From contig NWQT01000027.1 in NCBI GenBank assembly GCA_002798295.1, forward strand, positions 124,001-188,000: a DNA stretch of 64,000 bases, in the 5' to 3' direction. The notes under the pieces are model-generated. The model was not told the origin of the DNA, did not search any database, and saw only the letters and a list, made by a program, of their open reading frames with translations. Made by a program: the position numbers and the translations under genes. Source of the stretch: Lysobacteraceae bacterium NML07-0707. GTDB taxonomy: Bacteria > Pseudomonadota > Gammaproteobacteria > Xanthomonadales > Xanthomonadaceae. Position 1 is the stretch's first letter; every line of letters begins with the position of its first letter. Below are positions 21,199-27,831 of the stretch, piece after piece.

Positions 21199-21275
21199 GC
21201 GCCTGTAGCTCAGCCGGATAGAGTAGCGGCTTCCGAAGCCGTTGGTCGGGGGTTCGAATCCCTCCAGGCGCGCCA
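21199..21275 (+). tRNA. tRNA-Arg (anticodon CCG)
   Basis: A 77-nt cloverleaf with encoded CCA. The acceptor GCGCCTG pairs with CAGGCGC (21265-21271), then G73 and CCA at 21273-21275. The anticodon loop TTCCGAA gives CCG, which reads CGG Arg codons. The D-arm has AGCTCAG-CCGGATAGAGT and the T-arm TTCGAAT closed by GGGGG/CCCTC. The last 16 nt are repeated three more times downstream. Confidence 0.97.
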
Positions 21276-21621
21276 CTTTCAGCGGCTTGCTGTCGGGATT
21301 TCCGGCTCTTCGCGCACAGCGCTCCGGGCGTTCCAAGCTGCATGCACCTGCGGTGCATAAGCGCAGCTTCTCACCCCTCCAGGCGCGCCACTTTCAGCGG
21401 CTTGCTGTCGGGATTTCCGGCCCTTCGCGCACAGCGCTCCGGGCGTTCCAAGCTGCATGCACCTGCGGTGCATAAGCGCAGCTTCTCACCCCTCCAGGCG
21501 CGCCACTTTCAGCGGCTTGCTGTCGGGATTTCCGGCCATCGGGTCTGCATGCCCGATGGCGCTCAAGGCGATATGTGCCTGCGGCACAAAAGCATCGCCT
21601 CTCGCCCCTCCAGGCGCGCCA
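21260..21621 (+). repeat. Tandem array repeating the tRNA-Arg 3' end every ~115 bp
   Basis: CCCTCCAGGCGCGCCA, the T-stem 3' strand through CCA of tRNA-Arg, occurs at 21260 (in the tRNA), 21375, 21490 and 21606. Units 1 (21260-21374) and 2 (21375-21489) are near-identical over 115 bp; one visible change is T/C after TTTCCGGC. Unit 3 (21490-21605) keeps the first ~45 bp (CTTTCAGCGGCTTGCTGTCG...) and then diverges in sequence but not in hairpin plan. The fourth tRNA-end copy leads into a terminator-like hairpin. No intact second tRNA is present. Confidence 0.93.
21335..21600 (+). other. Conserved covarying hairpins within the tRNA-linked array (possible structured RNA)
   Basis: Each unit carries a two-step hairpin: an outer 7-bp stem, an inner 6-7-bp stem, a TGC loop and an AAGC/AAAGC bulge on the 3' side. 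Units 1 and 2 (21335-21369, 21450-21484) have outer AAGCTGC/GCAGCTT and inner TGCACC/GGTGCA. Unit 3 (21566-21600) has outer AGGCGAT/ATCGCCT and inner TGTGCC/GGCACA. Six base pairs differ by changes on both sides that keep pairing, while loop and bulge stay constant. Unit 3 adds an 8-bp hairpin at 21536-21559 (CCATCGGG/CCCGATGG). This pattern suggests selection on structure. Confidence 0.55.
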
Positions 21622-21640
21622 TCTTCGATGGCTTGTTTTT
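21618..21640 (+). terminator. Likely terminator of the tRNA-Arg/repeat transcript
   Basis: GCCATC (21618-21623) pairs with GATGGC (21627-21632) around a TTC loop, followed by TTGTTTTT. The left arm uses the CCA end of the fourth tRNA-end copy. A transcript starting at the tRNA could therefore run through all repeat units and stop here, about 365 nt after the mature tRNA end. Confidence 0.6.
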
Positions 21641-21685
21641 GTCATTCTGCACAAGCCAAGCGCCGTCGCAGAATCTTCTGGATTT
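21641..21685 (+). repeat. REP-like palindromic repeat, copy 1
   Basis: A palindromic unit with arms ATTCTGC (21644-21650) and GCAGAAT (21668-21674) around a 17-nt centre containing CAAGCCAAGCGC, ending TTCTGGATTT. A second copy at 21955-21999 has the same arms and a similar centre. Dispersed units of this kind are recalled from xanthomonad genomes; the family name is not asserted. Confidence 0.7.
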
Positions 21686-21725: not shown

Positions 21726-21755
21726 CCTCCTTTCTTTGCTGGCAAAGAAAGGAGG
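21726..21755. repeat. Long perfect hairpin in an intergenic repeat cassette
   Basis: CCTCCTTTCTTTGC (21726-21739) pairs perfectly with GCAAAGAAAGGAGG (21742-21755), a 14-bp stem with a 2-nt gap. The surrounding 21686-21954 has no gene I can support. It contains further short inverted repeats (such as CGCGCCCGCTACGCG near 21779) and sits between two REP-like copies. The segment looks like a non-coding repeat element of the kind dispersed in xanthomonad intergenic DNA. Confidence 0.6.
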
Positions 21756-21954: not shown

Positions 21955-21999
21955 GTCATTCTGCGCAAGCGAAGCGCGGTTGCAGAATTTTCTTGGGTT
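21955..21999 (+). repeat. REP-like palindromic repeat, copy 2
   Basis: The same plan as the copy at 21641: ATTCTGC (21958-21964), a centre CGCAAGCGAAGCGCGGTT, then GCAGAAT (21982-21988) and TTCTTGGGTT. Together the two copies bracket about 270 bp of non-coding DNA. From 22000 to 22091 I see no gene or clear signal. Confidence 0.7.
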
Positions 22000-25855: not shown

Positions 25856-25984
25856 CGCGAAACCGCCTATGCATGGATGCTCGAATACAACAAGATCCGT
25901 CCCCACGACGCACTCGGCAATCTCACCCTCACCGAATACCACAATCACCTCGCCGGAAGTTCTACTTTTGAAATGTATGCTTGA
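25856..25984 (+). pseudogene. 3' remnant of an IS3-family transposase
   Basis: About 42 codons ending at 25982-25984 read RETAYAWMLEYNKIRPHDAL, then GNLTLTEYHNHLAGSSTFEM. This is the C-terminal signature of IS3-family OrfB transposases, past the last catalytic Glu. Everything upstream is missing. The remnant abuts the truncated 3' end of the RHS gene on the other strand, and its last bases form the final codons of the RHS open frame. Confidence 0.8.
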
Positions 25985-25989
25985 CGGGG

Positions 25990-27831
25990 AAGGCTACGGT
26001 TTTGCTGCTGTTGGTCTTTGCGATTGGGCTGCCCTGGGCATCGCTGTGCAGGTATTCGATGCTGATGGTATTGCTGCCAATGGGTTTACGATGTTCGGCA
26101 ATCAGCCGGTTGCCCAGATAGATATGCCGGATGCGCTGTCCGGCTTGTTCGTCACGCTGCCAGCGCAGTTGGCCGCTGTGGTCGTACAGGTATTGCGTAT
26201 TGCCACCATGGCTGCGCAGGCGGTTGCCGTAGGTAAAGCCTTTGACTGCGCCATTGGGGAAGTAGCTGATGTTGCTGGCAACATTCACGCTGCTGCCATC
26301 CTGGGCGATGATTTGCGTGACTTGCCCCAGGGCGTTCAGCGTGTAATGGGCAGTCAGCCCTGCCGGGTGGCTGTGGCTGTTGAGGTGGCCATTGGCGTTG
26401 TAGCCATAGCCCAATGTCCACGGGCTGCTAGCATCGGCAGTAGTGGTTTCTTGTACCAGCAAACGGCGTTTGTTGTGGCTGTAGCTATTGGTGACGGTAT
26501 TGCCGCCATGACTGTTATGGGTGGTGATGGTGGCAGGCAAGCCATCCGGGGTATAGCGCCGGCTCTGGTTGCCGCGCCCGTCGGGAAAGCTCAGCTGGCT
26601 GAGCCGGTTGCGGGCATCGTAGCTGCGGCTCACACGGCGTGCCGCTACCGCCGGGCTATTTCCGTGCAGTTCACAGGCAGGGGTGCCAGTCAGGCCGGAT
26701 GCACTCCATTTAAGATTGCCGGCACCGTCATAACCCATCAATGTGGTGCCCGTTTCCGGCTCCACGCTACGGCACAGCAGTTGTTGTGCGTTGTAGCTGT
26801 AACTGCGGTTGATGCCTGTACCGGCATCGGGGTTGGCGCTGTTGCTGCGACGAATCCGTGTGGGTTTGCCGAATATGTCGCGCTGGATATGGGTATGTGC
26901 GCCTCCCGGATGAGCGATATGAACGGGAAAGTCTGTTACAGGCGTGTCCCATACCATGTAACTGCTGGTGGTTTGGTTGCCCTTGGGGTCGGTGACCCGG
27001 GTTTTGAAGCCACTCAAATACTCGGTACGTGTTGTCAGCAAGGCAGGACTGAGTTCGCTGTCTTGCTGAACTTGCACCACCCTGCCCAATGCGTCATAAC
27101 GGGTATGCGTACCGGTATTGCTGTCGTGTACGCTGGCCGGATACGCAGCAAAGGTCACACGACCTTCATGGTCGTAGGCAAAGCGCTGAAAGCGTTGGGT
27201 CGCCGCCTGATGGGCGGTGTCGTATTCGCGCACCAGCAAAGGCCGCCACAGGGCATCGAAATAAGTCACCTTGCGCCCATTGCCGGTAGCGACTGTTTGA
27301 CGCCAATGCCCAGCCGGGATGCCGTATTCGGCTGCATTGACCTGCTCAAACACCTGGCTGGTGCCATGCCATGCCGTGCTGTCTCCACCGGGATAGGTAA
27401 TACTCGCCAGCCGCCCCATGGCATCGTAACCGTAGCCTGTGCTGTAACCGTTTTCGTCCGTTGCCCGGGTAATCCAGCCCGCATCATTGACCTGTGCCGA
27501 CTGTGTGGCGCCAGAGGGAAACTCAAGCGTAGCGGGATATTGAATTGTTTGTGGAATGCCGCGCTTCCAGTTACTCAATGTGGTGGTATTGCCGTTGCCG
27601 TCAGTTACGGTTTTAATCGTGCCACGCTGACCGCCAGCAATGCTGGAGGTGGTGTCCCAGCCCAGGGTTTGTACGGTGCACCCGTATTGCTTGCTGACCA
27701 ATGGCAGCGCATAGGTGTTGTCATAGGTGTTTCCGATATCAGCACACCATTGGTGCCGCAACCTTTCGGAAGCTCTGCAATGGGCGCCGTGCATTTGACC
27801 TGGGAAATTTGACCCAGTACCCATTTGGCAA
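25990..27831 (-). pseudogene. RHS/YD-repeat protein, segment 3 (C-terminal part, truncated)
   Basis: About 600 residues of RHS/YD repeats (GYGYDAMGRLASITYPGGD, TRYDALGRVVQVQ, LYDHSGQLRWQRDEQAG) ending in the core-like IEYLHSDAQGSPIAKTN. The variable C-terminal tip that would follow is lost: the frame runs into IS3 sequence and ends PVKHTFQK. Upstream, the frame that continues segment 2 (KWVLGQISQVKC) breaks near 27731, where one missing base explains the shift into the NTYALPLVSK frame. RHS proteins are large cell-surface or toxin-delivery scaffolds; this one cannot be made intact. Confidence 0.85.

Follow-up and report, generated by a model that had tools for sequence, protein, structure and literature searches.

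Copies of the 3′ end of tRNA-Arg(CCG) alternate with a dispersed two-hairpin repeat element in a Lysobacteraceae genome

How does a tRNA gene come to be followed by several copies of its own 3′ end? The question is raised by tRNA-Arg(CCG), the sole tRNA gene that ARAGORN finds in the window, the 64-kb stretch of Lysobacteraceae bacterium NML07-0707 DNA analysed here. The last 16 nt of this plus-strand gene, CCCTCCAGGCGCGCCA, occur as exact copies at 21260, 21375, 21490 and 21606 (spacings 115, 115 and 116 bp), with no fifth copy anywhere in the window even when one mismatch is allowed. Shuffled sequences gave a mean of 0.02 matches, and none of 100 reached four. A preliminary description had reported the tRNA and its tandem 3′-end copies, which are real by the ARAGORN call, the exact matches and the shuffles; it had also placed a terminator-like hairpin with a T-run at the end of the array, and that is present too (21618-21632). 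This hairpin, GCCATC-TTC-GATGGC followed by TTGTTTTT, starts within the CCA end of the last target copy. The same kind of array is found in two further species of the genus (G009 and G012), whose genomes were separately assembled, which argues against an assembly artefact. In phage and plasmid collections, among the matches listed, only the tRNA part is covered.

Our answer is that the array probably arose by insertions of a repeat element, here called E, between tRNA-Arg(CCG) and the terminator, each duplicating a target of ~30 bp, with local amplification afterwards. We regard this origin of the array as fairly well supported. The features are collected in Table 1.

Table 1. Features of the tRNA-Arg(CCG) locus, in window coordinates
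Feature	Position	Strand	Evidence or remark
tRNA-Arg(CCG), encoded CCA	21199..21275	+	ARAGORN call, Rfam tRNA match
T1, the tRNA's own copy of the duplicated target: tRNA 3′ 16 nt and 14 nt of flank	21260..21289	+	right limit deduced from the last copy and the empty site of G001
E copy 1	21290..21377	+	R1 match 21295-21377, 89.3 bits; terminal CCC shared with T2
T2, second copy of tRNA 3′ end and flank	21375..21404	+	
E copy 2	21405..21492	+	R1 match 21410-21492, 93.7 bits; 99% identical to copy 1
Hairpin 1 of E copy 2 (GCCC...GGGC)	21420..21444	+	structure and covariation; GTTC next at 21445-21448
Hairpin 2 of E copy 2	21450..21484	+	structure and covariation; 4-nt 3′ bulge AAGC at 21474-21477
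Conserved tail CTCACCCC of E copy 2	21485..21492	+	
T3, third copy of tRNA 3′ end and flank	21490..21519	+	
E copy 3, divergent variant, same fold	21520..21608	+	R1 match 21525-21608, 76.4 bits
T4, last copy; flank retains terminator stem after CCA	21606..21635	+	
Terminator-like hairpin and TTGTTTTT	21618..21640	+	stem-loop 21618-21632, then T-run

Each spacer of the array holds one copy of E, a two-hairpin element of ~85 bp that ends in CTCACCCC or, in copy 3, in CTCGCCCC. The stretches between the tRNA-end copies had been called unique, which is wrong: copies 1 and 2 of E share 82 of 83 positions, and copy 3 agrees with them at 60 of 87 aligned columns (69%), with paired changes that keep the same fold. 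Nor is every tRNA-end copy followed by a unit of about 100 bp, since the last one runs into the terminator with no further unit behind it. Inside the unit is a structured element dispersed over many unrelated sites, which the preliminary description overlooked. The order within E is hairpin 1 (GGCCC...GGGC in copy 2), CGTTC (CGCTC at this position in copy 3), hairpin 2 and the tail. Hairpin 2 consists of two stems, with four to five bulged bases on its 3′ side; in copies 1 and 2 the bulge reads AAGC.

The fold was evaluated in 11 aligned copies from the window's own genome and relatives, with the structure drawn from the window copy. Standard pairs fill 92.1% of 228 cells, versus 75.2% in shuffles, and 14 of 22 pairs have changed on both sides. 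No shuffle out of 500, and none of six slid versions, attained the covariation score of 0.482, while the count of further pair types was matched by 16 of the 500 shuffles. The copies were picked by similarity to the window, so some bias toward structure is to be expected in these figures; the G008 copy beside the tRNA forms 11 of the 22 pairs. Folding energies against shuffles are moderate for the whole array (z -2.6) and weak for single units (z -1.4, -1.2 and -2.1; two other cuts gave -0.2 and -1.4), so it is covariation that carries the case for structure. An outer stem linking the left and right flanks of E was considered and rejected as weak and confounded by self-complementary repeats (127 copies, mean -22.3 versus -20.6 kcal/mol, p = 0.0009).

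The neighbourhood holds other repeats. Directly behind the array lie two copies, at 21641-21674 and 21955-21988, of a 34-nt repeat (GTCATTCTGC...GCAGAAT), with no third copy in the window within three mismatches of the shared pattern. At 21726-21755 lies an inverted repeat, CCTCCTTTCTTTGC / GCAAAGAAAGGAGG, whose perfectly matching 14-nt arms are 2 nt apart. A 620-aa ORF on the minus strand (25962-27824) has a sequence that we take, from its resemblance, to be RHS/YD-repeat-like.

A covariance model of E, termed R1, was run against 60 related genomes with a threshold E-value of ≤ 0.01. It matched in 37 of them, including 32 of the 36 in the window's family; the family members G003, G011, G016 and G032 gave no match. 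Copy numbers per genome are lower bounds, at most 77 candidates having been scored in each. R1 makes ten matches in the window's own genome, spread over four sites, and in the places examined E lies mostly away from tRNAs. A pattern scan of genome contigs yielded at least 118 loci, in which R1 made 64 matches (80 loci) and 34 matches (the other 38); the strong ones come from Lysobacter, Luteimonas, Stenotrophomonas, Xanthomonas, Pseudoxanthomonas and related MAGs.

Look-alikes with the plan of E and another bulge occur in Alphaproteobacteria (Rhodobacterales, a Brucella sp. and Mesorhizobium). Fourteen copies, chosen by eye from the pattern matches for their resemblance to E, were aligned: 90.6% of cells are paired, 13 of 19 pairs show double changes, and the covariation score of 0.503 was reached by none of 500 shuffles, with 10 of the 19 pairs formed in the Mesorhizobium row. 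The search pattern itself contained the conserved blocks, so that finding them invariant is no evidence; what supports these putative E-like elements is the paired changes in hairpin 2.

Some genomes are rich in E or in hairpins like it. G045 has 76 R1 matches among 77 candidates scored, a lower bound, and in most of 18 stretches from this genome (e.g. L235-L252) E is embedded in a longer similar repeat, and the flanks to either side are related. L101 (G054) and L263 (G035) are dense clusters of E-like hairpins with little sequence between copies. The idea that E is part of a composite transposon, suggested by an inverted pair that encloses ORFs in L248 and by the position of E inside the larger repeat of G045, was set aside.

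At the other three E sites of the window's own genome, the unit carries the start of the neighbouring gene, read backwards. By Pfam, the gene starts copied are those of a methyltransferase (four units on contig C33), an epimerase-like gene (two on C34) and purA (one on C11). We call this layout T-E-T′, for target, E and target copy, and evaluated it by asking whether the right flank of E repeats any part of the 300 bases on the left of E, with a score of at least 24 and a start between -6 and 0 relative to the end of E. From a starting set of 233 E matches, 61 were dropped for not being first in their array, 11 for short flanks and two as duplicates, leaving 159. The loci are best-scoring or pattern-selected, and so a non-random sample.

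A repeat of the left sequence starting at the end of E was found for 25 of the 159 first-in-array copies. Eighteen start at -3, which is the terminal CCC, three at -2, two at -6, and one each at -4 and 0. As a control, left and right flanks of different loci were paired, which gave 66 of 7,997, or 51 of 7,970 once same-target pairs were removed. The remaining first copies comprise 21 of the 159 whose repeat has another starting point, in several cases within a larger repeat context, and 113 with none. E is shown to be structured and dispersed, and about one-sixth of the first copies examined adjoin a target copy that starts at the end of E.

Fourteen of the 25 rows are at tRNA genes, with eight tRNA targets: Arg-CCG (six species), Arg-ACG, four Ser genes (one of them copied from both sides), Phe and, by its sequence, presumably Glu. 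The weakest of these rows is L071, where the repeat is 12 nt. Eight rows are at the ends of protein genes of five kinds, namely methyltransferase (three genomes), LuxR-type regulators (two), and an epimerase-like gene, purA and ruvA once each; the other three (L138, L226 and L229) have no target assigned. The copied gene end is on the left of E in all 22 assigned rows, a position that may in part be trivial and does not serve as proof here. A Sedimenticola MAG (L156:5124-5322) shows that the process can give rise to an additional, almost complete tRNA sequence: the copy behind E there spans nearly all of a tRNA, apparently tRNA-Glu.

Relatives also show the sites with and without E. The preliminary description had staked its reading on a repeat unit at tRNA-Arg(CCG) in some relative, and eight of 17 genus genomes carry E there: the window's own, G006, G008, G009, G010, G012, G013 and G004, the last with a truncated E displaced by an island. 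The other nine have none at this gene. One of these is G001, which a tree of the methyltransferase region places close to the window's species; in G001 the tRNA is directly followed by sequence resembling the flank of T4. From this empty site, T4 would be the copy that keeps the native flank of the tRNA. In G006 and G010 the tRNA end is a variant, CCCTCCGGGCGCGCCA, and the repeats carry the same variant, so each array copies its own tRNA.

The methyltransferase locus, compared by eye with G003 left out, has E in five of 16 genus genomes; in the other 11, gene runs to gene with neither E nor a duplicated start. Comparing G012 with the window's own genome at this locus, T and hairpin 1 are common to both and the second hairpins differ. 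The methyltransferase-region tree has weak inner support and does not settle the number of gains or losses of E.

The island of G004 (G004:C14:487511-539594; L300, L301) is a segment of ~52 kb bounded by a complete tRNA-Arg(CCG) on one side and a copy of the 3′ half of this tRNA on the other. An older tRNA 3′ end with the truncated E lies at its far side. An ORF near the tRNA has an ASCH domain, and one of 731 aa at the opposite end matches nothing in Pfam.

Under the insertion reading, E, a small, non-coding, two-hairpin repeat element, would have been inserted 3′ of the tRNA. The duplicated copy begins where the C-run that ends E coincides with the CCC inside the tRNA 3′ end; with this start, the tRNA, its CCA and the terminator would all have survived. 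At least two variants of E are present, one of which would then have been duplicated locally. As for the copying, a DNA strand that has copied E may fold its hairpins, the free 3′ CCC tail of E may pair with an upstream GGG on the other strand, and the target may be re-copied from that pairing point, driven by host replication enzymes or some other enzyme. Co-transcription from the tRNA promoter would yield an RNA of ~365 nt that ends at the native terminator, and the array may, as the preliminary description proposed, make a small RNA or affect tRNA 3′ processing.

Insertion is supported by the covariation, the dispersal of E, the junction rule, the empty sites, the presence of two E variants at one tRNA and the terminator in the last copy. 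Against it count the 134 of 159 first copies without a duplication at the end of E, the non-random choice of loci, and a partial E after the last target in L147, G006 and G009, which fits tandem duplication and decay as well. The lack of a candidate enzyme also counts against it: neither PF01797 nor PF00078 (reverse transcriptase) is matched in the window's own genome. A link of E to reverse transcriptase was rejected, as PF00078, found in 10 of 37 genomes, is absent from the window's own genome and from G006, G009, G012 and G013.

Those partial E copies make tandem duplication the main rival, unlikely in our estimate but to be taken seriously. Here E would already have stood beside the tRNA, replication slippage or recombination between the CCC of the E tail and the CCC of the tRNA would have duplicated the tRNA end together with E, and the last E would have been lost or truncated. 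The shared junction is indeed mostly 3 nt, the array forms stable hairpins, and units within one array can be near-identical. The absence of a full E after the last copy at tRNA-Arg(CCG), at tRNA-Arg(ACG) of G013 and at C33 and C11 of the window's own genome speaks against it, as do the two divergent E variants (69% identity) beside one tRNA and the relatives with sites that lack both E and the duplication.

That E is a REP-type element spread by a RAYT transposase we consider improbable. E is a dispersed palindromic two-hairpin repeat, and the CGTTC before hairpin 2 is near the CGTC tag that PMC3733652 gives for one REP superfamily. Yet the window's own genome has no match to the RAYT domain PF01797, and of 86 RAYT places listed, the 12 examined, with loci from the E-rich G045 and G054 among them, all lack E in their flanks of up to 1.5 kb. 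This evidence leaves the CGTC repeats untouched, because those are not associated with transposase genes according to the same paper (PMC3733652).

Attachment-site scars, left by repeated integration and excision by a site-specific integrase using the tRNA 3′ end, are the least credible origin: tRNA-Arg(CCG) does serve as an integration site in the genus (the ~52-kb segment of G004) and the window's own genome has seven PF00589 matches, but all seven are on other contigs and none is on the 188-kb contig that holds the window, which bears out the earlier remark that no integrase is nearby, and moreover the G004 duplication spans 47 nt of the tRNA (query 31-77) and not 16, the same layout occurs at protein gene ends, and the unit, which holds a conserved ~85-bp hairpin element, is too small to accommodate an integrase gene.

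Insertion of E at this one array may be an instance of something wider. Tentatively, E may be a mobile, structured, gene-less family common to Gamma- and Alphaproteobacteria, in which CCC-directed copying would duplicate a target of 30 to >100 bp while sparing tRNA and gene ends, so that arrays like tyrT/rtT would be a general outcome. If so, the process would be one not yet described in bacteria and might be likened to SINE-like elements priming on their target. In the literature searched, which covered few subscription papers, there is no description of E or of the T-E-T′ rule. The precise junction and the empty sites make the origin of tRNA-end arrays testable, and they point to an unexplained spread of a small structured DNA repeat without damage to the adjoining genes.

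Among known repeats, REP elements and BIMEs resemble E in being small, dispersed, palindromic, intergenic and sometimes clustered. They differ in that E consists of two joined hairpins, the second bulged, ends in the tail CTCACCCC and copies targets of tens of bases. REP elements carry GTAG or CGTC tags, as defined in PMC3733652. By that definition E is without the GTAG tag, its tail being CTCACCCC, or GGGGTGAG on the other strand, and no RAYT gene flanked by the repeat was found in the window's own genome or at the 12 loci examined of the 86 listed. The CGTC class has its tag, a stem of 8-9 bp, a loop of 4-5 and the tail CCA; E, with CGTTC and a bulged two-part stem, is near this class and not equal to it when the two are set side by side by description. 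Bru-RS of Brucella, an intergenic palindromic repeat listed at 103-105 bp (PMC2267715), and RIME of rhizobia, also an intergenic palindromic repeat (PMC2573895), are dispersed elements of Alphaproteobacteria, the bacterial class in which the E-like elements occur; by description, both may be relatives of the latter.

The closest likeness in layout is the rtT RNA locus, in Salmonella a 175-bp variable tandem repeat (PMC2658671). E. coli K-12 has four Rfam RtT units (RF00391) at tyrT/tyrV, and copies of the tRNA-Tyr 3′ end there start in C-rich sequence. The preliminary description had drawn this parallel, and it stands for the layout, tandem units behind a tRNA that each carry the tRNA 3′ end with hairpins between. 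It fails for sequence. K-12 has tRNA-Tyr, a spacing of 178 nt behind tyrV and a different element; at the gathering score tRNA is the sole Rfam family matched in the window, and the array gives nothing plausible beyond tRNA, RtT included, at E-values up to 10; and the best R1 hit in the K-12 tyrT region (9.8 bits, E-value 0.12) is not significant. The array is thus no member of Rfam RtT and shares its layout. The tyrT/rtT array had looked like an oddity of one tRNA. The finding is more general than first reported: in the array, this known layout is made up with a dispersed hairpin element for which we found no name, and with that other element the layout recurs at eight tRNA genes as well as at protein gene ends of five kinds.
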